Origin: Afifellaceae bacterium
GTDB lineage: Bacteria > Pseudomonadota > Alphaproteobacteria > Rhizobiales > Afifellaceae
Assembly (NCBI GenBank): GCA_028284625.1
Contig: JANQRH010000008.1
Location: 1-64,000 of the forward strand
Direction of reading: 5' to 3'
DNA: 64,000 nt
The notes under the pieces are model-generated. The model was not told the DNA's origin. It searched no databases and saw nothing but the letters and a program-made list of their open reading frames with translations. A program made the translations under genes and the position numbers. Below are positions 44,483-64,000 of the stretch, piece by piece. Every line of letters begins with the position of its first letter. Positions within the stretch are counted from its first letter, which is position 1.

Positions 44483-44571
44483 GGGCCCTCCTTCCGGCCA
44501 TGGAGGTTTCGAGTTTGAAACCCTGGCTGCGATCGCTCCGCCACGCAAGCGTCCACTGCGGCGAGCAAAGC

Positions 44572-44595: not shown

Positions 44596-44618
44596 AAGTC
44601 GGCGTCTGGGAGGTTCGG

Positions 44619-46052
44619 CTACTTCCGATATCCCAGGTTCTTCAGCTCGGCTTCGGCGGCGGCGGCCATCTGATCCAGCCCGTCCTTCGGCGAAACCTCG
44701 CCAAGCAGGATATTGAAGAAGATCGGCGCCGTAGCCTCGCGCACCTGAGCGTGGAACGGATAGGGCGGTGCACCGGCGAACAGGTAGCCCTGATCGCGCA
44801 GGAGGTCGTAATAGCCGCCCAGCTCCTCGTTCATGGCCTGGACTTCGGGAGCCTCGTAGGTTGCCGTGTGCGTGATGCGCGGAGCGGCAACCGCCCAACC
44901 CGGCTGTACCTCTTCCTGCGCCATATATTGCAGGAACAGAATCGCGGCTTCCTTGTTCTTCGAGGTGACCGGTATGCCGAACGCCCCACCGTCATAGTAG
45001 CCGATGTAGCCGGCGCCGGATTCGGCGTCTGCCATGACGCCCTCGGCGAGCGGAGGCAGCGCGACGCCGACATTGCCGACGACCCGCGACTTGGACTCAT
45101 CTGACGCGATCCAGGCCGCGTTCTCACCATAGACAAGACCCTGGGCCGCACGGCCAGCGGCGAAGGTCGTGCCGACTTCGGTCCAGGTCGAGGCCGGCGA
45201 TTCGGGCGGTGCGATGTCGCGCATGGACAGCCACCATTCCATGGCGGCAAGCGCCTCGGGGCTGTTCATCTGCCCGCCATTTTCGACCGACGCCGCGTAG
45301 TTGTTGTCGGCGTCGATTCCCCAGTTGTAGACGCCGAAGGTCGGCGCGACCGACTCGTAGTACTCGTACCAGGACGCGACATGACCGGTATGGGCCTGGG
45401 CCGTTGTGCCCCAAAGCTCCATATCGTTTGCCTGGCCGTAATCCGTGAAGAACTGAGCGATCTCGGCGTATTCGGCATGCGTCTTGGCGGGAACGAGATC
45501 GCGACCGGTCTTCTCCTTGAACGCGGCCTGTATGTCGGCATCACCGAACAGGTCGGTCCGATAGAGGTACAGCTTGATGAAAGCCTCCATCGGGATACCG
45601 AACAGATCGCCGTTGTCGCCCTTGAAGTAGTTCGCGAAGGTGGTGAAGTTCGCCTCGTCGTAATTCGGCGCCTTCAAAGCCGCATTGTCGGCCAGCTTCT
45701 GTGTGGTGTTGACCAGGAAGTCACGCGACAGGTAGGCGTAAATGATGTCCTGCTCGATATAGACCATGTCATAGATACCGGTACCGGCTTCCATGTCCTG
45801 GATCGCCTTGGTGTACATCTGGTCCCAGGATGTGGTCTCGATCTCGACGCGGATGCCCGTCAGTTCTTCGAACTCCTTGGCGATGACATCCGAGATGTAG
45901 TTGGAGGGCGGGGTTGCTTCCGTCACACCGCGCAGCGTCATGCCCTTGTACGGCTCAGCGGCCTTCTTCCAGAACGCATCGTCCGCGAGCGCAGCGCCGG
46001 CGGAGAGCAGGATCGCCAGCGCAGATGCGCCGGCCTTCAGTGAAAAACTCAT
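44619..46052 (-). CDS. Extracellular solute-binding protein (polyol-type ABC)
   Basis: Signal peptide [25 protein letters not shown]; MalE-type sequence. Confidence 0.92.
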
Positions 46053-46135
46053 CGATTACCTCCCGAAGTGCACATCGACGGGTCCGCGGTTCCTTTGGCC
46101 TGATCAACGGTCGTCCCACGGCGCCCAATGTCGAC

Positions 46136-46211
46136 AATTGCATCTGCATCGGGTTGCATGCAAGTGAAATTGCAAATGCATGGCTTGCGATACAAACGCA
46201 TCGCATGCATT
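46136..46211. promoter_or_regulatory. TGCA-rich operator array in divergent promoter
   Basis: TTGCATGCAA palindrome 46154-46163; TGCGAT-N8-ATCGCA 46186-46205; further attgcatctgcat, attgcaaatgcat and gcatgcatt. Confidence 0.55.
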
Positions 46212-46263
46212 GTTTGGGGTGCACTCGCGGCCGTTGCGCCGCTGAAATGGTTAGAGGCGGCGC

Positions 46264-47220
46264 ATGCATAGCGGCGCAGACAACGATGATACTCTCGTGA
46301 CCGAGGTCTGTTGGCACTACTATGTCAACGAGCTAACGCAGGCCGAGGTAGCAAAGGTCATGGGCCTCACCCGCCTTCGCGTCAACCAAGCCATCGGTCG
46401 GGCAAAAGCGCTTGGCATGGTGCGGGTGGAAATAACGTCGCCATTCCTTCCCCGTGTCGAGCTTCAGGACAAGTTGCAGCGCGAACTGAGCATCGGCAAA
46501 GCTCTTGTGGTTCCGGCCAACCGGGGAGCCTACGACTACCATGTTCCGGCTGGCGCGGCACTTGCGAGCTACCTGTTGTCACGCCTGGAATCGAAGTCCT
46601 GGCGAAAGGTTGGCGTTTCCTGGGGCATGACTTTGGCGAGCGCGATTGAGCGGCTGCCCCGCCAGGCGCGGCCCGATCTGGACATCGTCTCGCTGATCGG
46701 CGGGACGACGGCGGGGGCGGCGTTCAACGCCTTCGGCATTGCCTCAGGCTTTGCCGAAAAGCTCGGCGCGAGCTATTCGCTGCTAGCGGCGCCGATCTAC
46801 TTGCCCGCCGAGGTGGATCGCGACGTATTTCTGTCGCTGGCGGCGTTTACGACTCACCTTACGAAATGTCGTCAACTCGAAGCCGCTCTTCTGGTCGCGG
46901 GAGACCTCTCCCGCCGCTCTTTCATGATTTCATCGGGTTTGCCGCGGGATGTGTCCGCCAAGAACCTGGCGGCCGCCGGTGCCGTGGGCGATGTCCTCGG
47001 TCGTTTTCTCGACAAGGACGGAGCGACAATCGATCATCCTTTGAACGATCGCACGGTTGGCGTTGACCTCGACGTGTTGGCGTCGATTCCAGAGAAAATC
47101 CTCGCCGCCGCCGGTCCGCACAAGGTCAAGATCATTCGCGCCGCCGCCAGGCGCGGCCTGGTTGACGTACTCATTACCGATGACTTGACCGCCGAGTTGC
47201 TGACGAAGGGCCGGGAATGA
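46264..47220 (+). CDS. SorC/DeoR-type sugar-binding transcriptional regulator
   Basis: WHYYVNELTQAEVAKVMGLTRLRVNQAIGRAKALGMVRVEI; KVGVSWGMTLASAIERLPRQ... Confidence 0.87.
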   Translation: MHSGADNDDTLVTEVCWHYYVNELTQAEVAKVMGLTRLRVNQAIGRAKALGMVRVEITSPFLPRVELQDKLQRELSIGKALVVPANRGAYDYHVPAGAALASYLLSRLESKSWRKVGVSWGMTLASAIERLPRQARPDLDIVSLIGGTTAGAAFNAFGIASGFAEKLGASYSLLAAPIYLPAEVDRDVFLSLAAFTTHLTKCRQLEAALLVAGDLSRRSFMISSGLPRDVSAKNLAAAGAVGDVLGRFLDKDGATIDHPLNDRTVGVDLDVLASIPEKILAAAGPHKVKIIRAAARRGLVDVLITDDLTAELLTKGRE

Positions 47221-47963
47221 CGGCCGGCGGACGATTGGCCATCATCTTCGATTTCGACGGGGTCCTGGTCAACAGTGAGGTCATCGCCATCGCCGAACTC
47301 CAGGATATTCTCCGCGACTTCGGGATCGACTCCGACTGGGACGAGATGATCCGCAACTTCCTTGGCGCCTCGTTCGACGATATCGAGGCATATATCCATC
47401 GCAAGACCGGATCGTACCCCGGAAACGCGTTTCGGGAGACTTGGTATGCGCGTCTGTTCGACCACTATGCGGAGGAACTGACGGTCATGCCGGGCGCGAT
47501 AGAGCTTCTTGATCGATTGGATGACCGCGGGGTTACCTATTGCATCGCGTCCGGGGGATCGTATCGGCGGCTAAAGTTCGCCCTCGACCTCACTGGACTC
47601 GGTCACCGTTTCGGAGAACGCGTCTTTAGCAGGGACTCTGTTGTAAGGGGCAAGCCGGCGCCAGATCTGTTCTTGTTTGCTGCCGAACATATGGACATCG
47701 ATGCGGGGATCGTCGTCGAAGACGCCGTTCCGGGCGTCCGGGCGGCGGTCGCAGCGGGCATTGACGCGATCGGCTTTGTCGGCGGCGATCATCTTGCGTC
47801 AGGACGAGAGGAACACGGCAAGCAACTGCGCGAGGCCGGCGCCAGGGCGGTGGTCACAGACATCCGCGACCTGCTCAAGTTTATCGGGCCGGGCGACACC
47901 ACAATGGCCCGGGCGGAGGCCTTACCAATAGCGAACCGCAGCCGACGGGGGATTAAGGTATGA
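47217..47963 (+). CDS. HAD family (subfamily IA) hydrolase
   Basis: IIFDFDGVLVNSEVIAIAELQDILRDFGI; GKPAPDLFLFAAEHMDIDAGIVVEDAVPGVRAAVAAGI. Confidence 0.9.
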   Translation: MTAGGRLAIIFDFDGVLVNSEVIAIAELQDILRDFGIDSDWDEMIRNFLGASFDDIEAYIHRKTGSYPGNAFRETWYARLFDHYAEELTVMPGAIELLDRLDDRGVTYCIASGGSYRRLKFALDLTGLGHRFGERVFSRDSVVRGKPAPDLFLFAAEHMDIDAGIVVEDAVPGVRAAVAAGIDAIGFVGGDHLASGREEHGKQLREAGARAVVTDIRDLLKFIGPGDTTMARAEALPIANRSRRGIKV

Positions 47964-48688
47964 GTGAGTTTTTGAGCGGCAAAGTCGCTGCAATAACAGG
48001 CGCGGCGTCAGGAATCGGACGGGCCAGCGCCGAGGCAATGGTTAGCGCCGGCGCGAAAGTCGTGATGGTCGACCGCGATGAACCGGCGCTGGAAGCAGTT
48101 GCCGAGGCACTGGGCGAAATGGCAATCCCCGTCGCTCTCGACCTGCTCGACACCGACGATTGTTCGATGATGGTCCCGAGGATCCTCGAAAAGGCGGGCA
48201 GGCTCGACATTCTTCACGCCAACGCCGGTACCTATATCGGCGGCGATCTCATGGAGACCGATACCGCCACAATCGACCGCATGCTCAATCTCAACGTCAA
48301 CGTCGTGATGAAGAACGTGCGGGACGCCCTGCCACACATGATTGAGCGCGGCACCGGCGACATCGTCGTTACGGCCTCCGTCGCGGGCCACTATCCGGTG
48401 CCGTGGGAACCTGTGTACTCGGCGTCGAAATGGGCCATGACTTGCTTCGTTCAGACGATGCGCCGCCAGGCCAACAAAAAGGGCATCCGCGTTGCCCAGG
48501 TTTCGCCAGGTCCGGTCAGTACGGCATTGCTCTCCGACTGGGAGGAGGACCGGCTGCAGGCCGCCAAGGATTCCGGCAGCCTGATCGAGCCGGCTGAGGT
48601 GGCCGACGCTGTAATGTTCATCCTGTCACGGCCGCGCAACGTCACCATCCGCGACATCGTCGTCCTACCTACTATGTTCGACATTTGA
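47960..48688 (+). CDS. SDR-family oxidoreductase
   Basis: KVAAITGAASGIGRASAEAMVSAGAKVVMVDRD; YSASKWAMTCFVQTMRRQ. Confidence 0.9.
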   Translation: MSEFLSGKVAAITGAASGIGRASAEAMVSAGAKVVMVDRDEPALEAVAEALGEMAIPVALDLLDTDDCSMMVPRILEKAGRLDILHANAGTYIGGDLMETDTATIDRMLNLNVNVVMKNVRDALPHMIERGTGDIVVTASVAGHYPVPWEPVYSASKWAMTCFVQTMRRQANKKGIRVAQVSPGPVSTALLSDWEEDRLQAAKDSGSLIEPAEVADAVMFILSRPRNVTIRDIVVLPTMFDI

Positions 48689-49224: not shown

Positions 49225-50073
49225 TTAGACTAGTCCGTAGACGCGGCGCGCATTGGCGGCCGCAACGGCTTCAGCCTCACTCTCCGACAGTCCATGGAGA
49301 ATCCGTCGGGTGATCCCGATCCAAGCGGGCAGATCGGACGTCATGTTCACCACCGGCCAGTCGCTGCCCCAGACGAGGCGCTGAGGTCCGAACACGTCAA
49401 GCACATGGTCGACATAGGGCTGGATGGTCTCAAGGCTTACGCTTCCGGGCGCGCAGTAGGCGAGCAGACCCGACAGCTTGCAATGGACATGGGGGAGGGC
49501 GGCGAGCGCCTTCATGTCGGCGCGCCACGGATCGAGCCCGCCATTTGCGATGTCCGGCACGCCGCAATGGTCGAGAACCAGCGTGGTGTTGTCGCAGGCC
49601 ATTGCGAGCTCACGCGCGATGGGCAGTTGGCGGGCGAGGAAGCACATGTCGAACACCCGGCCCGCATCGCCAATCTTGCGAACGTTGCTGCGGAACGTTT
49701 CAGACTGCGACACCGCATCGTCGACCACATGCAATATGCGGCGGTAGCCGACGATGCCAAGCGTCGCCGCACGCTCCAGTTCCGCCTCGAAGCCGTCGTC
49801 GCTTTCCGGACGAATGGTGGCGATCAGCCCGAGAATATTGCTGTCTTGCGCGGCAGCGCGCCTGGCGATGAAGGGCGCCTCGTCCGTCCAGCGTTCATCG
49901 TCCACCGCAGCTTCCATAAACAGGGTTCCGGCGATGCCGAGATCGGTCGTCAGTGCCTTGTAGTCGTCGAGCGTGAAGGCTCGGCCGGCCAGTGCCTCGA
50001 TTCCAGCCGTCCAGCCGTAGGGCAGTTCGTCGGCGTAGATCAGGTGCTGGTGCGTATCGATGAGCGGTATCAT
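49225..50073 (-). CDS. Amidohydrolase (COG3618, L-fuconolactonase-like)
   Basis: MIPLIDTHQHLIYADELPYGW; LDHCGVPDIANGG; LVWGSDWPV. Confidence 0.88.
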   Translation of the reverse strand: MIPLIDTHQHLIYADELPYGWTAGIEALAGRAFTLDDYKALTTDLGIAGTLFMEAAVDDERWTDEAPFIARRAAAQDSNILGLIATIRPESDDGFEAELERAATLGIVGYRRILHVVDDAVSQSETFRSNVRKIGDAGRVFDMCFLARQLPIARELAMACDNTTLVLDHCGVPDIANGGLDPWRADMKALAALPHVHCKLSGLLAYCAPGSVSLETIQPYVDHVLDVFGPQRLVWGSDWPVVNMTSDLPAWIGITRRILHGLSESEAEAVAAANARRVYGLV

Positions 50074-50136
50074 GGTGTCCTCCCTTGCCGATGGCCTGAC
50101 GGGCGACAACAGCCCGCCGGCTGGCGATCGCCGGCG

Positions 50137-51249
50137 CTATACTTGCGCAAAAGTCGCGTTGTCGATGAGGTCCCAGTCCAGATCGATCCCAAGGCCCGGG
50201 CCTTCCGGCATGGTTGCGATGCCCCCCTTGATCGGCAGCGGTTTCGCCAAGCCGAACGCGAAGGTGTCGATAGGCCATAGCAGCTCGAAATAGCTGGAAT
50301 TGGCTACGGCGCCGTTGAGGTGCAGATTGACCAGCTCCAGCGGGTGCAGGATGGTCGTGTGCAGCTCGCAGTTGGCGTGAAAGGCCTCGGCGAGCCGCGC
50401 CGTCTTCAAGGTCCCGGTAATTCCACCCGTCCAGCTCGGGTCGGCACGCACGACATCGACAACCCGCGTCGCCAGACATTCGGCGACAGAGTAGGGGTGC
50501 TTGGCCAGAACCTCCGTGCCGACCACAGGGATGTCCAGGACACGGGTCAGCTCGCGCAGCGCGCCGAAGGCCTCGTCAGGCAGCGGTTCTTCCAGCCAAA
50601 GATAACCGAGCTTCTCCAGTTCGCGGCCGAAGCGCACGGCCTCTTCGAGCGTGTAGGGCTGTACCGGATCGGCCATGAGCGTGAAATCGTCGCCGACGGC
50701 CGCGCGTACAGCCCGGTGAATTTCGATATCCTCGTCGACGCTTCTGCCAGGCGGGTGGGTCTTGTAGGCTTTCATGCCGGCCGCCTGGACTGCCTTTGCC
50801 TCGGCGGCATAGGCGTCGGCATCGGCAAGCACCATGGAGGAGCAATAGACCGGCACCTCCTGCCTGACGCCGCCGATATAGCGCCACAGCGGCTGGCTTG
50901 CCGCCTCGGCGCCTAGAATCCACAAGCAGCAATCGACAGGGCCATAGGAGTAGATCGGCAGGTGATGCCACCAGCGATCGGCGGTGCGCCAGTCCTGCCA
51001 TGCGCGTTCGCGGTCAAGCGCATCCCGGCCGATCAGGAATTCACGCAAGGAGGCCGCCGCCAGGTGGCCTGCCCCCAGTGCCGAACGGCCGGCGAAGCCG
51101 AACATGGACGCCGAAGCGCCATCATCGCATGTGATTGTGTAGACGAGGAATTCCATCGCCTTCTGCGCCTGACCGTCGCGCATCGAAGCGCCGGGAATGG
51201 AGGAGCCGTCATGGCGGCAGCACCGGATGTCGAGGCTGGTGATTTTCAT
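50137..51249 (-). CDS. Mandelate racemase/muconate lactonizing enzyme (enolase superfamily; L-fuconate dehydratase-like)
   Basis: GMKAYKTHPPG, DDFTLMADPVQPYTLEEAVRFGRELEKLGYLWLEEPLPDEA, VVGTEVL. Confidence 0.88.
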   Translation of the reverse strand: MKITSLDIRCCRHDGSSIPGASMRDGQAQKAMEFLVYTITCDDGASASMFGFAGRSALGAGHLAAASLREFLIGRDALDRERAWQDWRTADRWWHHLPIYSYGPVDCCLWILGAEAASQPLWRYIGGVRQEVPVYCSSMVLADADAYAAEAKAVQAAGMKAYKTHPPGRSVDEDIEIHRAVRAAVGDDFTLMADPVQPYTLEEAVRFGRELEKLGYLWLEEPLPDEAFGALRELTRVLDIPVVGTEVLAKHPYSVAECLATRVVDVVRADPSWTGGITGTLKTARLAEAFHANCELHTTILHPLELVNLHLNGAVANSSYFELLWPIDTFAFGLAKPLPIKGGIATMPEGPGLGIDLDWDLIDNATFAQV

Positions 51250-51252
51250 GGT

Positions 51253-51903
51253 TCAGAACTTCCCGTACTTTAGATAGGCCTCCTGGGGATCGATCCCTTC
51301 CAGGATCGCCTTGCGCACCAGGCTCTCGGTTCGCATCGCAGCGACCGCCGCCTCGATCACCTCGTCGAGGATCTCCGCGGGGATGCAGACCATCCCATCC
51401 CTGTCGCCGTGCAGCCAGTCGCCGGGCCGCACGAGCACCTCGCCGATCATGATGTCGACATCGGTGCCGGTGGGCAGCCACACTCCGACGATATCGCGGG
51501 GCGTGTGATGCGTACCCCAACACGGGAAACCGAGCCTGATAATGAAATTGGTGTCGCGTAGCGCGCCGTCGATCACGCAGCCGAGGACGCCCTTGGCGTG
51601 CAGCGTTTCCGCCGAGAGCTCACCCATCTGTGCGACCAGGTGCGTATGCGGTTGTGCACACCAGACGTGACCCGGCTTTGCCTTGGATAGCAACCCGGTC
51701 CAGGCGAGAAGGGTCTCGTGCGGATCGGCGGTCTCGTCGATCCTGCCTTCGATCGTGAAGGCCGGACCGGCTAGCGTCGTGTCCGGTTGCAATGGGGTGA
51801 TGGTTGGCGGCAGCGTGAAATTGCGTCGTCCCATGCCGCGCATCACGTCGTGCACCACGCCAGTGTAGCAGTTCGCCAGCTTCTCAACGCGCTGGTCAGC
51901 CAT
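51253..51903 (-). CDS. RraA family protein (HMG/CHA aldolase-like)
   Basis: VLGCVIDGALRDTNFIIRLGFPCWGTHHTPRDIVGVW; GDWLHGDRDGMVCIPAEI. Confidence 0.88.
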   Translation of the reverse strand: MADQRVEKLANCYTGVVHDVMRGMGRRNFTLPPTITPLQPDTTLAGPAFTIEGRIDETADPHETLLAWTGLLSKAKPGHVWCAQPHTHLVAQMGELSAETLHAKGVLGCVIDGALRDTNFIIRLGFPCWGTHHTPRDIVGVWLPTGTDVDIMIGEVLVRPGDWLHGDRDGMVCIPAEILDEVIEAAVAAMRTESLVRKAILEGIDPQEAYLKYGKF

Positions 51904-52225
51904 GATGGAAAACTTCTTCCATCATGGCCCACCACTCACCCTCTTCTCGCGTGTCGAGCGGAACCTGGCACGGCATGCACACGTCCCACCATTCCTGCGT
52001 GCGCGGATCGGCGGCCATCTTCGCGGCGTCGGCCGCAAAGTCGTCGCCGGTATATTCCCAGTAGCCGAACAGCAGGTTCTCCGGCTCCTTGAGGAAGATG
52101 GTGTAGTTGGTGATGTTGCACTTGGAGATCATGTCCAGGATGTCCGGCCAGACCTCGGCGTGAAGGCGCTTGTACTCGGCAACCTTGTCGGCTTTGAGCC
52201 CGATGAGCATTCCCATGCGTTGCAT
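51896..52225 (-). CDS. rhaM: L-rhamnose mutarotase
   Basis: MQRMGMLIGLKADKVAEYKRLHAEVWPDILDMISKCNITNYTIFLKEPENLLFGYWEYTGDDF. Confidence 0.9.
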   Translation of the reverse strand: MQRMGMLIGLKADKVAEYKRLHAEVWPDILDMISKCNITNYTIFLKEPENLLFGYWEYTGDDFAADAAKMAADPRTQEWWDVCMPCQVPLDTREEGEWWAMMEEVFHHG

Positions 52226-52257
52226 CTGCGTGTTCTCCTTTGCGGCTTGCTGCGCGG

Positions 52258-53352
<1,095 letters not shown>

Positions 53353-53355
53353 GGG

Positions 53356-54213
53356 CTATCCTTTCACACCGCCGAACGTCAGTCCGGAGATGAGGTGTTT
53401 TTGGACCAGGAACGTCAGGACCAGCGCCGGCACGATGATGATGACGGCCATGGCGCACATCCCGGCCCAGTCGATTGTGAACTGTGCGGTGAAGTCCATC
53501 AGGCCGACCGGCAGGGTCTTTGAATCTGTTGATCGCGTCAGTTGGCTGGCCAGAGCGAATTCGTTCCAGCTTGTCAGGAAGGCGAACACGCCGGCGGCGG
53601 CAACGCCGGAGCGCGCCAGTGGGAACTCGATCTTCCAAAACGCTTGCCAGCGCGTACAGCCATCGACCTGCGCGGCCTCAGACAGGGATATCGGGATCTG
53701 CCGGAAGAAACCGTCGATCAGCCAGATCGTGAACGGTACGTTGAGCGAGACGTAGACAATGATGAGGCCAAGCTGCGTGTCGATGATGCCAAGCCACGAC
53801 CACAACATAAAAACCGGCAACGAAAGCGCGATGCCCGGCACGGCACGAAACAGCATCAGCCCGAGGAAAACCGAGTTCTTGAATCGGAACCGGAAGCGGG
53901 CGAAGGCATAGCCGCCGGCCATACCGATGCTCAGCGCGATGAGCGTCGACGTGATTGCGATCACCATCGAGTTCCCGAAATAGCTCAGAACGGGAATCGC
54001 GACCTGTTCGGCGCCGAAGCCGAAGATCTTGGCGAAATTGGAAAGCGTCAGGTCCTGCGGAATCCAGATCGGCGGCTTAGCCAGGATCTCCCGGTTCGGG
54101 CGGAATCCCGACAGCACCACCCACAGGCCGGGCACGCACATGATGACCATCACAACGAACGTGGCGAGCCACAGCCCGGCGGCCTTGATCTGGTTCTTCA
54201 AGGCCCGGTTCAT
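53356..54213 (-). CDS. Carbohydrate ABC transporter permease (MalG type)
   Basis: Start MNRALKNQIKAAGLWLATF; SLSEAAQVDGCTRWQAFWKIEFPLARSG EAA motif. Confidence 0.92.
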   Translation of the reverse strand: MNRALKNQIKAAGLWLATFVVMVIMCVPGLWVVLSGFRPNREILAKPPIWIPQDLTLSNFAKIFGFGAEQVAIPVLSYFGNSMVIAITSTLIALSIGMAGGYAFARFRFRFKNSVFLGLMLFRAVPGIALSLPVFMLWSWLGIIDTQLGLIIVYVSLNVPFTIWLIDGFFRQIPISLSEAAQVDGCTRWQAFWKIEFPLARSGVAAAGVFAFLTSWNEFALASQLTRSTDSKTLPVGLMDFTAQFTIDWAGMCAMAVIIIVPALVLTFLVQKHLISGLTFGGVKG

Positions 54214-55121
54214 TCTGCGCCCCCCATGTAACGGCGGGCGGCGACCAGCTTGGTGAAGAAGTAGTAGGTGAACGCGATCGAAAGGATCGTCGAAATGTAG
54301 GCCATGGCATTCGCCTGGCCCATGCGCGCATTCTCGTAACCGGTTCGCGCGATCATGGTCCATAGAAGCTCGGTGCGGCCGGCGGGCCCGCCATCGGTCA
54401 TCACCGCCACGATGTCGTAGGCGCGGGCCACGTCCAGCGAGCGTATGGTCATGGCGATGAAGGCGAACGGCATGAGAAACGGCAGGGTGATGTGGCGGAA
54501 CACCTGCCAGGGATTGCAGCCGTCGACCCTGGCCGCCTCGATCGGGTCGCGCGGCATGGCGAACAGTCCGGCCAGCAGCAGGATCGCGAACACCGAGGTG
54601 CTCATCCAAACCTCGGCGAAGATGATGGAGAACATCGCGAGCCGACCGTCGACCAGCCAGGCGATCGCCTGATCGGTGATGCCCAGGGACTGAAGGGCGT
54701 TGTTCAGGATGCCGATATTGTCATTGAAGATGAACTTGAACTGGAAGCCGACGAGGATAGGCGAGAACATCATGGGAAACATCATGATGGTGCGCAGCAT
54801 CCGCTGACCCCAGGTGATCTTGTTGATCAGCAGGGCGATGCAAAGTCCGAGCAGGAACTCCACATTCAGTGCGATCGCGAGGAACAGAATCGTCCGTCCG
54901 AACGCGGCCCAGAAATCCTCATCCTGGAACAGGCGGATGTAGTTGCGCAGGCCGATGAAGGTCTCGATCGTTTCCGGTCGCGTCAGCCGGTACGGCGTCA
55001 GCGACGTCCACAGCGAGAACGCAAGCGGCATCGCCACAACGAACAGCATCGTGAGGATGGCTGGCGCCAGAAGCAGAACCGGCGTGAGCCTGGTTTGATG
55101 CGTGCGAATGTAACGGATCAA
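54210..55121 (-). CDS. Sugar ABC transporter permease (MalF type)
   Basis: IEAARVDGCNPWQVFRHITLPFLMP EAA motif. ORF extends to 55187 but the first ~22 codons encode a GC hairpin; TTG at 55119-55121 (LIRYIRTHQTR) is the probable start. Confidence 0.85.
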   Translation of the reverse strand: MIRYIRTHQTRLTPVLLLAPAILTMLFVVAMPLAFSLWTSLTPYRLTRPETIETFIGLRNYIRLFQDEDFWAAFGRTILFLAIALNVEFLLGLCIALLINKITWGQRMLRTIMMFPMMFSPILVGFQFKFIFNDNIGILNNALQSLGITDQAIAWLVDGRLAMFSIIFAEVWMSTSVFAILLLAGLFAMPRDPIEAARVDGCNPWQVFRHITLPFLMPFAFIAMTIRSLDVARAYDIVAVMTDGGPAGRTELLWTMIARTGYENARMGQANAMAYISTILSIAFTYYFFTKLVAARRYMGGAE

Positions 55122-55146
55122 GTCCGGGCCTCGCCGGCGAAGCGGA

Positions 55147-55176
55147 GGCGCGGGGCCGACTGCGCGGCCCCGCGCC
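55147..55176 (-). other. Hairpin just after solute-binding-protein gene
   Basis: GGCGCGGGGCCG-actgcg-CGGCCCCGCGCC: 12-bp perfect stem, 7 nt 3' of the SBP stop. Confidence 0.85.
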
Positions 55177-55183
55177 GTTTCAA

Positions 55184-56515
55184 TCATAGATACCCGGCGT
55201 CTTCCATGACGATGCGAGCGTCGGCGGCGGCTTCGTCAAGCGCCTCCTTGGCGCTCTTGTCGCCGATCATCGCCGCCTGCAATTGCGGCCACAACACGTT
55301 CGACACCTCGATCCATTCAGGGATCAGCGGCGGTGTGAAGGCGTCCTCAGCCATCGACGCCTGATAGGTCTCAAACACCGTAACCAGGAAGTCGTTGCCA
55401 TCGGCGCGGAACTCGGCCTTGGCGTCGTCCCAGACCTGAGTGCGAGTCGGCAGGAGGCCCTTGCGCGCCTCGACCATCTGGCGGTCATAGTCGGTCAGGA
55501 AACTGACGAAGGATGCGGCAGCTTCCTTGTTGTCGCAGGTTTCGGTTACCGAGAAAGTGTGCGAGCCGGACCAGCCGGTGCGGATGCCGGCGGAGCCCTT
55601 CGGGGCCCGGGTCAGCCCGACATCGCCGGCGACCTTTGAGTTCTCCGGATCGTTGAAGAAGGCCGACCAGCCGCCCCAGTCGAGATTCATGGCGACGGTG
55701 CCGGAGGCGAAGCCGAGGCCGGTGTCGTCCCATAGATAGTTCGGTACGCCCGCGGGAACCGCACCGGCCTGATAGAGGTCTACGAACCAGGTGAGGGCGC
55801 GTACGCCGGCTTCGGAGTTGAAGGTCGGCTCCCAGCCATCGTTGAAGAGCTGACCGCCCTCCGCCACCAGCATCTCATAGAAGCGGCCGGTGATGGCCTC
55901 GTCCTTGCCGACAAACTGAGTGCCGAAAAAATCCGGCGGATTGGCGAAGAACTTGGCCTGGTCGGAGACCTGCTGCCAGGTTTCCGGCGGTGCCAGGTCG
56001 TAGCCGTATTCGGCGGCGAACTGAGACTGGTTGTCTGCGTCCTGGTAGAGCGACTTGATGTAGAACAGATTGGAAACATCGGAATGGCGCGGCAGCTGAA
56101 CCAGCCGGTCGTTGACCGTGGAGTGCTCCAAAACAAGCGGCACAAAGCCGGCCAGCACGTCCCCTGAAACGTGGTCGCGCAGGTCGACATAGATGTTGCC
56201 GTATTGCGGAGCGAAGCTGGTGTGGTTGGAGCCAACGCACCAGTCCAGCGTGCCGGCCGCGATATCCTGCTTGATTTCCCGATCGAGCTCAAAGTGGTTC
56301 TTGCGCGAGAGGATTTCCACCGTGGCACCGGTGGCCTCCTCCCATTTGGAGATCTCGGCATAAAGTGGCTCGTATTGCGCGCCGCCAATCAGCTTCACAC
56401 GCAGCGTGTAATCCTCGAAGCTGCCATAATCGCCGGCGGCAAACGCTGTGCCCGCAAGAAGCGCTGGGATCAGCGCCGCCGAAGCGGCCATTGTCTTGAA
56501 CGCGTTAAGTGACAT
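55184..56515 (-). CDS. Extracellular solute-binding protein (carbohydrate ABC)
   Basis: Signal peptide MSLNAFKTMAASAALIPALLAGTAFAAGD; MalE-type. Confidence 0.92.
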   Translation of the reverse strand: MSLNAFKTMAASAALIPALLAGTAFAAGDYGSFEDYTLRVKLIGGAQYEPLYAEISKWEEATGATVEILSRKNHFELDREIKQDIAAGTLDWCVGSNHTSFAPQYGNIYVDLRDHVSGDVLAGFVPLVLEHSTVNDRLVQLPRHSDVSNLFYIKSLYQDADNQSQFAAEYGYDLAPPETWQQVSDQAKFFANPPDFFGTQFVGKDEAITGRFYEMLVAEGGQLFNDGWEPTFNSEAGVRALTWFVDLYQAGAVPAGVPNYLWDDTGLGFASGTVAMNLDWGGWSAFFNDPENSKVAGDVGLTRAPKGSAGIRTGWSGSHTFSVTETCDNKEAAASFVSFLTDYDRQMVEARKGLLPTRTQVWDDAKAEFRADGNDFLVTVFETYQASMAEDAFTPPLIPEWIEVSNVLWPQLQAAMIGDKSAKEALDEAAADARIVMEDAGYL

Positions 56516-56567
56516 GTCGTCCTCCCTGGTTCCACCGGTTCCATGAGGCGTTGCGCGCTATCTGCGC

Positions 56568-57779
56568 TCAACGCACTCTTTTTTCCGCCACGCTTCCCGC
56601 AGGCATGAGATCGGGAAGCAATTGGGAAAGAATCATCTCTGTGTGCTCACCCAACGCGGGCGCGGCGCGTTCCGATTTCAGCGTCTGCCCATCGACGCGA
56701 ACCGGGCCGCGCAGCGCATTCAGTTGCGTGTTGTTGCTGCGGTGAATGGTTTGCTGGAAGTCGAGTGTGGCGAAGGCCTCCGAGGCCAGCATCTGTGGCC
56801 AGTCCAGCACTTCTGAACACCAGATATCGGCTGGTTGGAGTATGGCCAACCAGTCAGCGGTGGTGCGCGTTGCGATGGCCTTGGCGAGAATGCCTTTAGT
56901 CGCATCGCGCTCTCGCATCATGGCTTTCGGATCATCGTAGAATGCGTCGAGGCCCTCGATCTCCATGAGTTCGGCGAGCGTCTTCAGTGAAGGCGTCATG
57001 GCGATGGCGAGATGCCCATCAAGCGTCTCATAAACGCCATAGGGCGCGCCAAGATAAGCGTGCGCTCCCGTCACCGCGCTGCGCTCAGGTGGGCGGCGCC
57101 CATCGTTCAGATGGGTGGTCAGCACCTCGAACTGAAAGTCGATCATTGCCTCAATCAGCGAGGTGTCTATGCGCGCGCCGCGCCCGTGGATGCCACGCCC
57201 GACCAGTGCCGCAAGGATGCCTTCGCACAAGGCATGGCCAGCCAGCATGTCGGCCACAGCCAGCCCCATGGGCATGGGGGGATCGCCGGCGCTGCCTGTC
57301 AGCCATAAAAGACCGGAGCGTGCTTGGGCCAACAGGTCCTGGCCCGGCAGGTCTTTCCACGGACCATCCTCGCCATAACCAGATATCGAACCGTAGATGA
57401 TGCGCGGGTTTATGGCTTTGACGTCCTCGTAGCCGAAACCCTGCCGTTCGATCACGCCTGGCCGGAAATTCTGGACCATCACATCCGCCGTCGCGATAAG
57501 CTCTTTGAGCTTCGCCCGGTCGTTTTCGTTCTTGAGGTCGGCGGTGATCGATTCCTTATTGCGGTTGATTGCATGGAAGAGCGAGTTGTCGCCGTTGATG
57601 TCGACATCGGAAATGTAGAGATGCCGGCACAGATCGCCGGTGCCGGGTCGTTCGACCTTGATGACACGCGCACCGAAATCGGCAAGCTTGAGGGTACAGA
57701 ACGGACCTGAAAGGAACTGGCTGAAATCCAGAACAATGAGGCCGGCGAGCGGCCGGTCGGCCATCGGGAGATTGTTCAT
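56568..57779 (-). CDS. CaiB/BaiF family CoA transferase
   Basis: PLAGLIVLDFSQFLSGPFCTLKLADFGARVIKVERPGTGDLCR; VQNFRPGVIERQGFGYEDVKAINPRIIYGSISGYGEDGPW. Confidence 0.93.
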   Translation of the reverse strand: MNNLPMADRPLAGLIVLDFSQFLSGPFCTLKLADFGARVIKVERPGTGDLCRHLYISDVDINGDNSLFHAINRNKESITADLKNENDRAKLKELIATADVMVQNFRPGVIERQGFGYEDVKAINPRIIYGSISGYGEDGPWKDLPGQDLLAQARSGLLWLTGSAGDPPMPMGLAVADMLAGHALCEGILAALVGRGIHGRGARIDTSLIEAMIDFQFEVLTTHLNDGRRPPERSAVTGAHAYLGAPYGVYETLDGHLAIAMTPSLKTLAELMEIEGLDAFYDDPKAMMRERDATKGILAKAIATRTTADWLAILQPADIWCSEVLDWPQMLASEAFATLDFQQTIHRSNNTQLNALRGPVRVDGQTLKSERAAPALGEHTEMILSQLLPDLMPAGSVAEKRVR

Positions 57780-58912
57780 CGCCGGCTCTCCCGATAGCTG
57801 GTCTCAAGGGCGTTCAGCGTCGGCTCGGCCCGTGCCTCTCCGCGCAAAAACGCGTGGATGATATCGCCCGCCTCATCTTGAAAGCGCATGTAGCCGTCAT
57901 ATCGAGGGCGTAGCCACGCCGTCTCAAGCGTCTGCCGGGTTCTGCGGAAAAAGTCGCGCGTGGCGGCGTTGCAGGAATCGTCGTCCCAGGCGACAGCGTT
58001 GGCCGGCTGCCCGCCTGACTGGAAGAACAGACCTTTTTGGCAACCCGCGCCCGCGACCCAGAAAGCGTAGGCAGCGGCGGCATCGCGGTGCTGGGAGGAC
58101 GACGCGACCGCGATGCCTGCGCCGCCGATCACCGTTCCGCACGGCCCGTTGTCGGCGATGCTCGGCGCGTCGGCGAAGACAAGCGGGAAGGGGCAGTAAC
58201 CCTCTCGGCTGTAATTGGTGTAGCCGTAACCGAACGGCGAATAAGCGGGTGCATTCTCGCTGCGGCCCATCCATTCATAGATGCCGATCGGATCAAGGTT
58301 CAGGCAGCGCGGATCGAGAAGTGCTGCTATCTCGGCCATTTGGTCGAGCACGTGCCGGCCCTCGCCGCCTGCGATGAACTCTTCGCCTTCGGCAATGACG
58401 AAGCCCTGGTTGCGTGCAAGGCCCATGAAGGTCGTGAGCGCGTTGACCGGGATGAGCGCAAAGCAGACCTCGCCGGCGCGCGCCAGATCGATCACGTCAT
58501 GCCAGCGGCTTGGCGCGGTGCCGATCTTATCGGGACGGAAGGCCGCCACGGGCGTGGCAGCATCGATTGCCAGTGCCCATTGGCGCCCGTCGAACGCATA
58601 GGAATCGTGCGACACGCCAACCGACTGACTTGCGATCGCGGCTAGCTCGTCGTCGTGGCCGACGCCGTCCAGCGCCATCAGCAAACCATTGCGGGCTGCT
58701 TCGCCCACATGCGGGTGATCGATTACCATGAGATCGTAGGTGTCGGCCATCTCCTCGATCGGCCGGTCGGCAAAGGCCTGCAGGGGTCGCTTGTCCCAGC
58801 TTATGGTTATGCCTGGATGGTCGGCCGCGTAGGCAGCGGATGTCGCCACCATCGGGTCGTAGCCGCGACTATGGTCCCAGGTCATGCCCCGCAAGTGGGC
58901 TGGCTCAGCCAT
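57776..58912 (-). CDS. Solute-binding-protein homologue without signal peptide
   Basis: [70 protein letters not shown]...: SBP family 1 core starting directly at the mature domain; overlaps both neighbours. Confidence 0.78.
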
Positions 58913-59477
58913 TTCTTGCGGCTTTCTTCTCGGCGATCACCTTGTCCGCTTCCTCGGCGAACCCAGACGGATCGCGATAGAGCGCCGTCATCAGATGCTC
59001 GCAATAAAGGACATGTTCGCCCTCGCCCTTATAGACGGAGTAGCTGACGCGGACTTTGCCCATCGTGTGGTCATGGACCTTCTTTTCGAGATTTTCGCGG
59101 ATGGTGTAGATCGTGTCGCCGATGAAGACGGGCGCGATGAAGCGCAGCCGGTCATACCCGTAGGAGAAGGAATTCAGGCAGTTGGTTGCCGCAAGGCCCA
59201 GCCCATAGGAAAACACCATTGCGCCGGCGACGAGCCGCTTGCCGAACCGGCCTTCTTCCACGGCGAACTGCTCATCGGACACATACGGGTGGTGGTCCAT
59301 GACAAGCGAGTTGAACAACATCGACTCGCCCTCAGAGACCGTCCGTCGGATGGAGCGGATGCGATCGCCGACTTCAAAATCCTCGAAGAACCAATCCTCG
59401 GCGTTCCACACCGGAATGGCCGCGTGTTCACCGGGCAGGCCCGGCAGCCCGCGCGCCTTCTGGCCGATTTGGGCCAT
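58905..59477 (-). CDS. MaoC family (hotdog) dehydratase
   Basis: [44 protein letters not shown]..., [17 protein letters not shown]. Confidence 0.88.
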
Positions 59478-59602
59478 GTTTCCTCCCAAGGCCACTATTT
59501 TCAAATACAAAGAGCTTTTTTATATATGATGTCAAGTGCGCGTGGTGGACGCGAGGCGCGGATCGTGCGCATCGACGGGCGGCGTCATCGACGGGGGAGA
59601 GC

Positions 59603-60061
59603 ATGGAAGTCGAACAATACTTTGAGGATTATGAGATCGGTGCGATGCGACAGACTGTGGGTCGGACAATCTCTGAGGCCGATATCGTATTCCATGCGGG
59701 GCATTCGGGTGACTTCTTTCCCCACCACATGGACGAAGAGTGGTGCAAAACACAGCCTTTCGGTGCGCGGGTTGCTCACGGCACGATGACCTTCGCCATT
59801 GGGATCGGATTGACCGCGACGCAGATCAATCCACGTGCCTTCACCTATGGCTATGAGCGCCTGCGCTTCCCCAGGCCGGTCTATATTGGCGACACGATCC
59901 GGACCACGGTGACTGTTGGCCGCAAGGAAGACGACCCCAAGCGCCCGGGATACGGACGCGTGGTGGAAGTCTGCGAAACCACCAAGCAGGACGGCTCGAC
60001 GGTGATGTATTGCGAGCACGTCTTGCTCGTCGAACGGCGTGGAGCAGAAAATGGGCATTGA
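59603..60061 (+). CDS. MaoC family (hotdog) dehydratase
   Basis: [76 protein letters not shown]. Confidence 0.92.
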
Positions 60062-61115
60062 TTTCAAACAGAGCTGGCCGGCGCCGACGGCGCCAAAGCC
60101 GATCGTCATCATCGGCGCGGGTGGTATCGTGCGCGATGCCCATTTGCCGGCCTACCGCAAGGCTGGGCTCATCACCGCTGGCGTGACCGACGTTGATGAA
60201 GGGCGCGCCCAAACGCTCGCCGATGACTGGGACATTCCCACCGCTTACCGAACGCTTGACGAAGCGGTGGACGCTCACGGCACCGATGCGGTTTACGACA
60301 TCGCAACTCCGCCTCATGTGATCACCGATATTCTCCCTGCGCTGCCGGACGGCGCTGCGGTGCTCGTTCAAAAACCGATGGGCGCCGACCAGGATCAAGC
60401 GCGGGCGATCCGGCAAACATGCCGCGATAAAGGTCTTAAAGCGGCGGTGAATTTTCAGCTGCGGTTTTCGCCGATGATGATGGCGGTCGCGGATGCGCTC
60501 GACCGCGGCCTCTTGGGTGAGCTGCTTGAGATCGAGGTGCACCTCAACCTATTCACGCCGTGGCACCTGTTTCCCTTCCTTATTCCGATGAAACGGGTCG
60601 AAATCGCCGTCCACTCGATTCACTACCTTGACACGATCCGCGCACTCGCCGGCAATCCGAACGGCGTGTTCGCCCGTTCGATAGGCGATCCGCGCGCGCC
60701 GGAATTTGCCCAGACCCGCACGTCGGCCATCCTCGATTATGGAGACCGGCTGCGCTCCACGATGACCATCAATCACAACCATCCCTTCGGCCGGAAATTC
60801 CAATCGGCGTGGCTGCGCGTGGAGGGCAGCGAGGGCGCAATGATGGGCAAGTTCGGCGTGCTCTACGACTATCCGAACGGCGAGCCGGATGAATTGTGGT
60901 TCGCCCGCAAAGACACAGACTGGGAGCAAATTCCGCTGCGGGGCGCCTGGTTCGTCGACGCCTTCACGGGCACGATGCGCAACGTTCAGCGCTTCGATGC
61001 CGGCGAGGATGATGCCCTCTATACCGGCGTGGAGGACGCCTATCAGACCATGGCACTTGTTGAAGCGTGCTTCCGCGCCATGGAGAAACCGGCCGAGCCG
61101 CTTATCCTCGACTGA
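60051..61115 (+). CDS. Gfo/Idh/MocA family oxidoreductase
   Basis: [62 protein letters not shown]. Confidence 0.92.
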
Positions 61116-61905
61116 CCAGATCGGCGTGCTCGGCGATGGCGCCGCCGAGGTTGCGCGAAATATGATTGGCGGTCTCGAACAACTCGCGGCAGCACGTGTC
61201 GAAATCGATCGGATCGTTGTAGCGATCCAGGTAGGGGATGGTGAGGGCTGCCACCGCCTGGCCGGTATGATCGAAGACGGGCGCTGCGATGTTGGTCACA
61301 CCCCGCAGCACGAAGCTCTTGGTGATCTCATGTCCACGCGCGCGGATGGCAGCGAACTCCTTGCGCATCGCGCCCGCGCTCTTGCCTTCGGGCAGCGGCA
61401 CGCGCGAGAAAAAATCCTCGACATCCTCGCTCGGCATGAAGGCGAGGATCACGCGACTTGAAGACGCCTTCCAAAGATCGATGCGGGCACCCAGTCGTAC
61501 GCTGAGGGTGTTGTTGCCTGGCGAATCCACCTGTCCGATGACAAGCAGGGCGTCATTGCTGATGACGCCCATATGGACCGTCTGGTTGATCCGCCGCGAC
61601 AGAGCGCGCATCTGCGGGCCGGCGATGGCCGTGAGCCGCTTCACCAGGGGCGTACGGTGCGCGACCTCAAATAAGAGCGTCGTCAGCATATAGCGATCAG
61701 TGTCCGGATCGGGCGCCACATATCCGCGCTCGGTGAGCACCACCAGCATGCGAAAGATTTCGCTGACGGATCGGCCAAGCGCTCGCGAGATTTCGGACTG
61801 CGTCAGGCCGGCCTCCTGCTCCGATAGCAGTTCAAGGATGTCGAGGCCTTTCTCGAGAGCCGGGGCCGAATATTGTTTGCGCTTGATGTCGTCCTGCGCT
61901 TTCAA
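61102..61905 (-). CDS. IclR family transcriptional regulator
   Basis: ALEKGLDILELLSEQEAGLTQSEISRALGRSVSEIFRMLVVLTERGYV; C-terminal IclR effector domain. Confidence 0.92.
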   Translation of the reverse strand: MKAQDDIKRKQYSAPALEKGLDILELLSEQEAGLTQSEISRALGRSVSEIFRMLVVLTERGYVAPDPDTDRYMLTTLLFEVAHRTPLVKRLTAIAGPQMRALSRRINQTVHMGVISNDALLVIGQVDSPGNNTLSVRLGARIDLWKASSSRVILAFMPSEDVEDFFSRVPLPEGKSAGAMRKEFAAIRARGHEITKSFVLRGVTNIAAPVFDHTGQAVAALTIPYLDRYNDPIDFDTCCRELFETANHISRNLGGAIAEHADLVSRG

Positions 61906-62181: not shown

Positions 62182-63192
62182 CTAACTGCCCCTGTAGGCG
62201 ACCACCACGACGCCCACGCAGTTGCCGCGCGCAACGCGGCCCGGTTGGCGCCGGGCATACAATCTGCCGGAGCTCCTGTAGTGCGCTTCGACTGGCGGCC
62301 TCCCTGGGTCATCGAGAAAATGCACCATTCCAGCGAGCTCGCCCTTCTCGACCAGGGCGCCCTTTTCATGCAGCGGCTCGTAAACGCCGGCCGCTGGCGC
62401 GTAGACGTACCCGTCCGAACCGGGCACGCACACTAGGTTTCTCTCGTCATCTCGCGGTCCGTTCGGCTCGCCCTCCATGAGGCCGAGGTGCTTGAGCACA
62501 TTGCGTACACCGCGCTCGGCAAGCTCGATTGAATCCAGCGAGACCGCGCCGCCGCGACCCAGCTCGGTGCCAACGGTGATCAGACCGTTTTCGACCGCAG
62601 ATGCAGTCGACGTGCGCGGATCGCCCAGATTGTTGAGGACGACCGTATAGGTCGCGCCAAACGCTTGAACGGCATCGAGAGTTTTCGCCATGAGGTCAGG
62701 ATTGTCCGAAGGCTCAACCACCGCGCTTGGAAGAATATCGAGAGACGAACCGCCCGAATGGAGATCGACGAAGGCGTCCGCCAGGGGGAAGAGAACGCTG
62801 TGAACGTAGTGGACGATCTGCTGAGTCATGGAGCCATGCGGATCGCCTGGAAAACACCGATTGAAGTTTAGGCCGTCGACCGGGGACGTCCGTTGCCCGG
62901 CGAGCACCGCAGGAATGTTTATGGCCGGGATAATGATCAGTCGTCCCCGGATTTCAGCGGGATCGAGGTCGCGGATGATTCTGCCCAGGACGATCGGCCC
63001 TTCGTATTCGTCGCCGTGATTGCCGCCCTCCATGAGCACGGTCGGGCCGCTGCCGTTCTTGATGACCGCGATCGGGATGGGCATCACGCCCCACGCGTCG
63101 GTATGCGGCGAATGGGGCAGGTGAAGTTCCGATACCTGCCGTCCATCGCGATCGAAATCGATGTCGGTATGGATCAACGAACGTTCGTTCAT
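62182..63192 (-). CDS. Succinylglutamate desuccinylase/aspartoacylase family protein (DoeB-like deacetylase)
   Basis: VLMEGGNHGDEYEGPIVLGRIIRDLDPAEIRGRLIIIPAINIPAVLAGQRTSPVDGLNFNRCFPG; VDLHSGG zinc-carboxypeptidase motifs. Confidence 0.85.
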   Translation of the reverse strand: MNERSLIHTDIDFDRDGRQVSELHLPHSPHTDAWGVMPIPIAVIKNGSGPTVLMEGGNHGDEYEGPIVLGRIIRDLDPAEIRGRLIIIPAINIPAVLAGQRTSPVDGLNFNRCFPGDPHGSMTQQIVHYVHSVLFPLADAFVDLHSGGSSLDILPSAVVEPSDNPDLMAKTLDAVQAFGATYTVVLNNLGDPRTSTASAVENGLITVGTELGRGGAVSLDSIELAERGVRNVLKHLGLMEGEPNGPRDDERNLVCVPGSDGYVYAPAAGVYEPLHEKGALVEKGELAGMVHFLDDPGRPPVEAHYRSSGRLYARRQPGRVARGNCVGVVVVAYRGS

Positions 63193-63243
63193 GGCCTGCC
63201 GCTTGTATGGACTGTCAGGTGGTAGAGGGATGCAGGGCTGCGC

Positions 63244-63280
63244 GACCCGCCATTCACCCGTGCCAGACGAATGACGGGTC
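63244..63280 (-). other. Hairpin after amino-acid-type solute-binding-protein gene
   Basis: GACCCGCCATTC (63244-63255) / GAATGACGGGTC (63269-63280), 12-bp stem with one GU on the transcribed strand, 11 nt 3' of the SBP stop. Confidence 0.75.
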
Positions 63281-63291
63281 GGATCGATCGG

Positions 63292-64000
63292 TCAGAGCGA
63301 GGGCAGATCAGCCAACGGCTCGCCCATCCACTTCTGATGCAGCGCGTCGAGCGAACCGTTCATCTTGCTGAAGAAGATGAACGTGTCGAGCCAGCGCAGC
63401 AGGTCGGACTCGCCGTGTCGCACGCCCATATGGGCCGGGCTCGTGCGGATCTTGTAGACGGTCGCGAATTCCGTGTCCGGGTTCTGCTTGGCCAGATCCA
63501 CGGCGACGATATTGGCCGTCCCGAAGACATCTACCTGACCTGACAGATATGCCGCAACGGTTGTCGCGTCGTCTTCAAAGCGAACAATGTTGCCATCGGG
63601 ATGGAGTTCGCTGATTGCAAGATCCTGCGTTGTACCCCGCGGCACGCCGATTTTGAGGTCGCCGAGATCCTTGGGATCGCTGACCGCGTGCTCCGCCGGA
63701 CCGAACAAACCGATGAACAGGCCCGAATAGGGCGAGGAGAACATGATCGATTTGGCCCGCGCGGGCGTGGCACCCATCACGGAGATGACAATATCGACCT
63801 TGTTGGTGACCAGGAACGGAATCCGGTTGGCGCCGGTGATCTGCTGCATTTCAAGTTCGACGCCCAGTTGTTCAGCGACCAGATTCGCAATATCGATATC
63901 GAGGCCGGCAGGTTCCTGGTTCTCGTCGACGAAGCCATAAACCGGGACGTCAAGCGGCACACCGATCCGCACCACGCCCGCGTCCAGAATGTCTTGCAGG
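63292..64000 (-). CDS. Amino-acid-type ABC transporter substrate-binding protein (SBP family 3; 5' end beyond window)
   Basis: LQDILDAGVVRIGVPLDVPVYGFVDENQEPAGLDIDIANLVAEQLGVELEMQQITGANRIPFLVTNKVDIVI; reading frame continues off the window edge. Confidence 0.92.
   Translation of the reverse strand, partial: LQDILDAGVVRIGVPLDVPVYGFVDENQEPAGLDIDIANLVAEQLGVELEMQQITGANRIPFLVTNKVDIVISVMGATPARAKSIMFSSPYSGLFIGLFGPAEHAVSDPKDLGDLKIGVPRGTTQDLAISELHPDGNIVRFEDDATTVAAYLSGQVDVFGTANIVAVDLAKQNPDTEFATVYKIRTSPAHMGVRHGESDLLRWLDTFIFFSKMNGSLDALHQKWMGEPLADLPSL

Follow-up and report, generated by a model that had tools for sequence, protein, structure and literature searches.

Plant mucilage, algal fucoidan, and gut mucus offer L-fucose and related deoxysugars as a major supply of carbon, and the degradation pathways that we know of for deoxysugar acids all run on free acids or phosphates. 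In carnitine metabolism, a class III coenzyme A (CoA)-transferase, CaiB, works with a crotonase, CaiD, as a CoA-recycling dehydratase, an arrangement to which FldA/FldBC is comparable, and we know of no partner with a solute-binding protein (SBP) fold in either system. Here we analyze a 64,000-nucleotide (nt) stretch from an Afifellaceae bacterium (positions 1-64,000 of contig JANQRH010000008.1, assembly GCA_028284625.1; hereafter the window), in which a conserved gene block brings together sugar-acid enzymes, a CaiB-type CoA-transferase, MaoC-fold proteins, and a leaderless cytosolic SBP-fold protein (cSBP).

The sugar half of the block resembles the nonphosphorylative L-fucose pathway, which proceeds through FucM, FucA, FucB, and FucC and then through FucF/FucG or FucH to pyruvate and lactaldehyde or lactate (PMC11199699), and of which a Campylobacter variant has been described (PMC6946681). 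The resemblance consists in an L-fucose-type mutarotase, a lactonase-like amidohydrolase, a putative acid-sugar dehydratase, and a candidate aldolase, with SDR and FAH proteins encoded in relatives and elsewhere in the same genome; unlike the described pathway, the window operon adds CaiB, MaoC1, MaoC2, cSBP, and a Gfo/Idh/MocA oxidoreductase (Gfo), and it has no L-fucose dehydrogenase of the usual SDR type. The CoA half is laid out as in CaiB/CaiD, with a CoA-transferase beside a hydratase, catalytic residues intact in both and CoA presumably recycled from product to substrate, but the window clade uses MaoC rather than crotonase and its substrate is probably a sugar acid. Similarly, cSBP shares the overall fold of sugar ABC-importer SBPs such as SmoF, the cyclodextrin-binding protein, and LpqY (template modeling (TM) score ~0.8), yet it carries no export leader, occurs in Bacteroidota clusters without ABC genes, and is recurrently linked to CaiB. 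Finally, a 'rhamnose' locus for which a novel pathway was proposed has been noted in Rhodobacteraceae bin08 (Leyn et al. 2017, PMC5507952). It encodes a mutarotase of the RhaM family, an ABC transporter, and six enzymes whose functions are unclear, and may be a locus of the window type, although the published text names no CaiB, MaoC, or cSBP and calls the transporter RhaFGHJ. Full-text literature searches on this gene set and on the S. meliloti locus retrieved no relevant paper. The L-fucose half is of a known pathway type, while no source that we consulted describes CaiB, MaoC, and a leaderless SBP together in an operon of this sort.

Results

Conservation and organization of the gene block

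Eleven codirectional genes occupy the minus strand of the window from 59477 to 49225, as determined from the open reading frame listing and Pfam, with every family confirmed. An original prediction made from the letters alone had described a co-oriented, mostly overlapping train of twelve genes; its co-orientation and all of its named families hold, whereas the count is eleven, in agreement with the prediction's own gene list, and overlaps occur at five of the ten junctions (-8, -4, +52, -4, -4, +3, +32, -8, +3, and +63 nt from the MaoC1 end to the LacH end), the largest gap being 63 nt. A GTDB genome scan with cSBP as the query recovered 25 relative loci (63-76% identity) in Rhodobacterales, Hyphomicrobiales, and other Alphaproteobacteria; as these were collected by cSBP homology and include many close relatives, the counts are nonindependent. 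Almost all sufficiently long relatives keep the order IclR; Gfo, MaoC2; MaoC1, cSBP, CaiB, SBP, MalF, MalG, MalK, (second MR_MLE), mutarotase, RraA, (MR_MLE), (SAF and UxaA dehydratase), (SDR), and an arrangement common to 25 separate contigs exceeds chance. Judged from these relatives, MaoC2, Gfo, and IclR belong to the same conserved unit as the 11-gene train. All 25 loci carry both the sugar half and the CoA half, which bears out the co-occurrence of the two in other genomes that the prediction implied, as well as the underlying claim that one gene block joins a 6-deoxyhexose-acid pathway to CoA-type enzymes. Most relatives encode a second enolase-superfamily protein, placed after MalK and ahead of the mutarotase (e.g., L034 16659-17780), which is missing from the window operon.

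The prediction further implied an unbroken train across the junction between CaiB and the transport SBP, and no promoter-like break was found there: the gap measures 0-83 nt across relatives and contains nothing beyond a ribosome-binding site and, in some loci, a small hairpin. A separate promoter 5' of the SBP was considered and none found, with no operator in the gap, and a consensus promoter scan of the CaiB-SBP gap gave none in the window and no more matches than in shuffles. The train is presumably co-transcribed. By comparison, the MaoC1-MaoC2 intergenic region contains a motif in 24 of the 25 loci versus 0.2 expected in shuffles; it takes the form TTTGACATATGAAAA in most relatives, overlapping a TTGACA box, and TTTGTATTTGAAAA in the window (59511-59498). 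A search of the bacterium's own genome for further operator sites with the consensus pattern gave no match, because the site in the window is itself a one-base shorter form.

A leaderless solute-binding fold linked to CaiB

The absence of an export leader from the SBP-fold protein encoded between MaoC1 and CaiB, also predicted, is upheld by the overlap of its gene with MaoC1 and by the upstream hydrophobicity: a hydrophobic stretch precedes the fold at only 5 of 124 cSBP loci but in all 37 genuine transport SBPs taken from these operons. The overlap and the hydrophobicity test with its positive control rule out a mis-started exported SBP. A cSBP-CaiB fusion was likewise rejected, as the long upstream open frames look, by eye, like GC-rich noncoding frames.

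AlphaFold gives a confident two-lobed SBP fold for cSBP (predicted local distance difference test score 89.4), and the top Foldseek matches in the PDB are sugar SBPs, namely SmoF (TM 0.83), cyclodextrin-binding proteins, and LpqY. W12, R16, D60, D65, P67, D117, Q292, Q302, W309, and R335 show no or almost no variation across 88 sequences, with 97-99% conservation at H14 and H66. Operons with ABC genes encode a separate exported SBP besides cSBP, and no permease partner of its own was found for the latter. Because it recurs with CaiB beside transport companions as varied as maltose-type ABC, ribose-type ABC, TRAP, and RhaT systems, cSBP is not an importer subunit or any other part of a transporter. 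The modeled fold, with its sugar SBP matches, would suit a binder or an enzyme alike, and cSBP would act as a cytosolic partner or enzyme for the CaiB step.

The CoA core recurs across phyla

In a wider sample of 76 distinct cSBP loci from Pseudomonadota, Bacteroidota, and Streptomyces, likewise gathered by cSBP homology and with many close relatives among them, CaiB lies within 12 kb of cSBP in 68 and MaoC or crotonase in 66, so that the core consists of cSBP, CaiB, and a hydratase; a Gfo gene is found within the same distance in 48. Outside the close relatives, the gene order shifts and cSBP, CaiB, MaoC2, Gfo, and IclR tend to co-localize. The cluster of Rufibacter and Persicobacter comprises RhaT, cSBP1, two CaiB proteins, cSBP2 (a second SBP-family protein), Gfo, and MaoC; IclR is encoded close by, and these loci have no ABC permease. 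On a plasmid of Persicobacter psychrovividus, the core stands beside TonB/SusD, RhaT, MDR, SDR, lactonase, alpha-L-fucosidase, and sulfatase genes, again with no ABC permease listed. A phage origin was rejected, no cSBP being present among 50,697 phage records.

Within one well-supported clade, the MaoC of the Bacteroidota loci is swapped for a crotonase in two other genomes (L103 and L104), with both CaiBa and CaiBb kept. MaoC and crotonase have unrelated folds and meet in acyl-CoA hydration/dehydration; the swap suggests that the module acts on a CoA thioester and is the strongest evidence in the sequences for such a substrate. Both crotonase loci encode an aldehyde dehydrogenase; that of L104 scores 497 bits on the AldA (lactaldehyde dehydrogenase) model, near the cut-off of 500, which would fit a lactaldehyde product.

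Paralogues of the core genes are found in the bacterium's own genome. A second, distant cSBP cluster (C13:153751-160672; L002, L076) encodes CaiB, crotonase, an MBL-fold hydrolase, a 3-hydroxyacyl-CoA dehydrogenase, MDR, SDR, and a maltose-type ABC transporter, and its cSBP forms a long branch (33% identity). A CaiB paralogue elsewhere (C20:480375-481523, L137; 41%) contains one in-frame TGA and is possibly a pseudogene. cSBP2 represents a second leaderless SBP_bac_1 family that is annotated as extracellular SBP and is encoded next to Gfo in clusters from Bacteroidota and, in some cases, from Alphaproteobacteria (e.g., L118 15540-16788, L119 3429-4616, L105 15978-17168, L120, and L146); the Croceibacterium protein starts directly at the fold, with no leader.

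Active sites of the CoA enzymes

The class III catalytic Asp is present in all 71 CaiB alignment rows, and the nearest solved structures are YfdE, formyl-CoA transferase, and SUGCT. MaoC2 has the Asp/His pair in 39 of 39 orthologues and in five additional Rf_MaoC rows; among a few MaoC-fold proteins, its closest solved relative is 4ffu, an entry named only 'oxidase', followed by the PaaZ hydratase domain and beta-methylmalyl-CoA dehydratase. MaoC1 keeps the Asp but has Val in place of His in 34 of 34 orthologues and so lacks the catalytic pair of an R-specific MaoC hydratase. Given this replacement, MaoC1 probably does not act as a hydratase of the ordinary kind and may instead be a noncatalytic partner subunit of MaoC2. 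In the crotonases where the motif was found, both GGG.E and PE are intact.

Substrate of the sugar half

The original prediction read the mutarotase, lactonase, and dehydratase as a nonphosphorylative L-rhamnose/L-fucose route, of which the fucose side is retained. In phmmer comparisons, the mutarotase matches the L-fucose mutarotases of known structure (7byu/7byw) at E 1e-44, and their L-rhamnose counterparts only distantly, at E 1e-7 to 1e-8, which does not support its identification as a rhamnose mutarotase from the RhaM name and favors L-fucose or a look-alike. L-Rhamnose as the substrate is accordingly disfavored, and RhaT in Bacteroidota keeps it open. From sequence, the substrate is most likely an imported 6-deoxyhexose, L-fucose, with D-arabinose, L-galactose, and L-rhamnose as possible alternatives.

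Among the enzymes that would follow, LacH matches the L-fucono-1,5-lactonase model NF052480 at E 1e-37 and 130 bits (cut-off 400). The MR_MLE protein has no equivalog match, and its best solved relatives (1rvk/4hcd/4mmw, E 1e-45 to 1e-44) are named only isomerase/lactonizing enzyme. The RraA-like protein contains the RD motif and is a plausible 2-keto-3-deoxy acid aldolase; the acid that we take to follow RD in RraA-type aldolases is Phe in the window protein. Gfo is probably the C1 dehydrogenase, as assigned by elimination.

The S. meliloti pSymB plasmid carries an orthologous operon with LacH, IclR, ABC, MR_MLE, mutarotase, Gfo, a MaoC2-like open reading frame, SDR, FAH hydrolase, and an annotated L-fuconate dehydratase, and with CaiB-cSBP ~10 kb upstream, at 731.3-733.6 kb of the plasmid. 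We take this operon to be the S. meliloti locus for which specificity for L-fucose was reported from transporter induction and transposon fitness. On Nitratireductor and Roseibium plasmids, CaiB-cSBP directly adjoins LacH-IclR and all components, including an annotated L-fuconate dehydratase, lie within ~15 kb. Gene calls outside annotated plasmids are from our own caller, by which the S. meliloti MaoC2 is shortened to 110 residues. Against the 2,4-didehydro-3-deoxy-L-rhamnonate hydrolase model, which has a cut-off of 500 bits, the FAH protein encoded in a relative reaches 431. In the bacterium's own genome, where pathway content rests on single searches, the operon is without SDR and FAH genes, and a 62% SDR and a 449-bit FAH hydrolase are encoded on other contigs.

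Features of the window

The features of the block are collected in Table 1, with the start codons of RhaM (52225) and LacH (50073) picked by Shine-Dalgarno context. Beside the cluster, positions 34312-48688 hold more sugar ABC operons with SDR, MDR, a SorC-type regulator, and a HAD phosphatase, which suggests that they form a sugar-catabolism island together with it. Beyond IclR, the minus strand encodes an AstE/AspA-type protein and an SBP_bac_3 protein (62182-63975) that are not seen with the block in relatives.

Table 1. Genes and regulatory motif of the conserved block in the window
Feature	Position	Strand	Basis
MaoC1, MaoC-fold, catalytic His of R-specific hydratases replaced	58905..59477	-	Pfam PF01575; D,V in 34/34 orthologues
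cSBP, leaderless cytosolic solute-binding-fold protein, proposed CaiB partner	57776..58912	-	SBP_bac_1 (weak match); AlphaFold; PDB fold matches; invariant residues
CaiB/BaiF class III CoA-transferase (CoA_transf_3)	56568..57779	-	PF02515 E 1e-103; catalytic Asp present
Transport SBP with signal peptide (SBP_bac_1)	55184..56515	-	PF01547; hydrophobic leader
MalF-type permease (BPD_transp_1)	54210..55187	-	PF00528
MalG-type permease (BPD_transp_1)	53356..54213	-	PF00528; start from gene caller
MalK/UgpC-type ATPase	52258..53352	-	PF00005; NF008653 above cut-off
L-fucose mutarotase, FucM type (Pfam rhaM)	51896..52225	-	phmmer vs solved mutarotases
RraA-like, possible 2-keto-3-deoxy acid aldolase	51253..51903	-	PF03737; remote to 4-carboxy-4-hydroxy-2-oxoadipate aldolase
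Mandelate racemase-type acid-sugar dehydratase (MR_MLE_C)	50137..51249	-	PF13378; solved relatives 1rvk/4hcd/4mmw
LacH, amidohydrolase (Amidohydro_2), L-fucono-1,5-lactonase-like	49225..50073	-	PF04909; NF052480 E 1e-37, below cut-off
MaoC2, MaoC hydratase/dehydratase, intact Asp/His, divergent from MaoC1	59603..60061	+	PF01575 E 1e-22
Gfo/Idh/MocA oxidoreductase, candidate L-fucose 1-dehydrogenase (by elimination)	60039..61115	+	PF01408/PF02894
IclR-family regulator of the block	61102..61905	-	PF01614/PF09339; adjoins block in nearly all relatives
Conserved operator/promoter-like motif, MaoC1-MaoC2 intergenic	59498..59530	.	24/25 intergenic regions

Discussion

The best explanation of the whole, which we hold tentatively and which may well need revision, is a single operon for L-fucose-type catabolism with a CoA-dependent route at the aldonate stage, for which we infer the substrate, the order of the steps, and the role of cSBP. 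Imported L-fucose would undergo mutarotation by RhaM/FucM and C1 oxidation, probably by Gfo, before LacH would open the lactone to L-fuconate. Fuconate could then be dehydrated by enolase- or UxaA-type dehydratases, with the CoA-dependent route operating in parallel or for a related stereoisomer. In the latter, CaiB would transfer CoA to the sugar acid (an aldonic acid, probably L-fuconate), the thioester would acidify the C2 proton, MaoC2, possibly with MaoC1 as noncatalytic partner, would eliminate the C3 hydroxyl, and CaiB would take CoA back from the acyl-CoA product and load it onto a further sugar acid, as CaiB/CaiD do in carnitine metabolism. cSBP would be a solute-binding fold co-opted in the cytosol for the CaiB step, either as a partner or as an enzyme. 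Cleavage of the 2-keto-3-deoxy acid by RraA, or by SDR together with FAH hydrolase, would yield pyruvate plus either lactaldehyde or lactate. A route ending through acyl-CoA intermediates, as suggested in the original prediction, is possible; we favor CoA activation at the aldonate stage instead, because the CoA core also stands in loci without a dehydratase or aldolase gene.

Such CoA recycling would explain the pairing of CaiB with a hydratase, the hydratase swap, and the Bacteroidota loci without a dehydratase gene. Several observations nevertheless weigh against the proposed operon function. In crotonase-type loci the dehydrogenases differ and a fucose mutarotase is mostly missing, which means that the core is not exclusive to L-fucose, and the LacH and FAH relatives score below the NCBIfam equivalog cut-offs, while the role of Gfo was reached by elimination. 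Ordinary dehydratases (enolase, UxaA) are encoded in 30 of 46 MaoC-bearing loci, beside which a CoA-dependent dehydration looks redundant unless it serves another stereoisomer. By itself, the mechanism leaves both these dehydratases and cSBP unexplained; they would be accounted for by another stereoisomer as additional substrate or by a substrate gated through cSBP. Lastly, our literature searches found no biochemical datum linking CaiB, MaoC, or cSBP to a sugar acid.

A different division of labor, which we consider unlikely, would have the CoA core act on another co-occurring substrate, such as an acid substituent or a modified deoxysugar imported along with the sugar, and be merely co-regulated with the L-fucose genes. 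The varied transporters and sugar genes that accompany the core, and the ~10-kb distance of CaiB-cSBP from the S. meliloti operon, are in line with this; however, the core lies inside the operon in most of the 25 relatives, with scant space for separate control, and sugar genes stand near it in most loci with no fixed second pathway. It is also quite unlikely that the block encodes a beta-oxidation-like route, in which a CaiB-made aldonyl-CoA would be oxidized at C3, by Gfo here or by 3-hydroxyacyl-CoA dehydrogenase where the cluster is of the crotonase type, followed by retro-Claisen cleavage of the 3-keto-aldonyl-CoA with cSBP or crotonase as the carbon-carbon hydrolase. The own-genome paralogue cluster, with CaiB, crotonase, 3-hydroxyacyl-CoA dehydrogenase, and MBL hydrolase beside cSBP, would suit it, and deoxyribonate provides the precedent of a CoA route with a glyceryl-CoA intermediate (PMC9007349), but the window-type cluster has no thiolase or BKACE gene, MaoC, a hydratase family, would be left unexplained, and the AldA-type aldehyde dehydrogenase neighbor points to C3-C4 cleavage.

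Given that its fold is that of sugar-binding SBPs, cSBP could also be a mere cytosolic sugar sensor or buffer in an otherwise standard L-fucose operon whose CoA genes are there by coincidence, which is very unlikely, as its linkage to CaiB in the 76-locus sample and its conservation from Pseudomonadota to Bacteroidota and Streptomyces exceed the incidental. Extremely unlikely, in turn, is that the CoA genes handle the C3 product as an acyl-CoA: lactate or lactaldehyde is indeed the expected product of nonphosphorylative L-fucose routes (PMC11199699), but lactate has no 3-hydroxyl for elimination by MaoC or crotonase and its oxidation requires no CoA-transferase.

The boldest reading is that the leaderless SBP fold would serve a class III CoA-transferase as an enzyme or as an indispensable subunit that hands over the substrate, and together with the hydratase would degrade sugar acids as CoA thioesters, in an L-fucose-type route common to Pseudomonadota and Bacteroidota and needing neither an enolase-type dehydratase nor an aldolase. 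We regard this as conceivable though doubtful; an SBP-fold enzyme, if true, would be categorically new. The structural-genomics orphans 4ffu and the 1rvk family may belong to the pathway, and the operon context may help to assign 1rvk, 4hcd, and 4mmw. Were the proposal to hold, the annotation of cSBP-type proteins, which public databases frequently label 'extracellular solute-binding protein', would be corrected, and CoA-thioester chemistry with a cytosolic SBP fold beside a CoA-transferase would constitute an added branch of sugar-acid metabolism.

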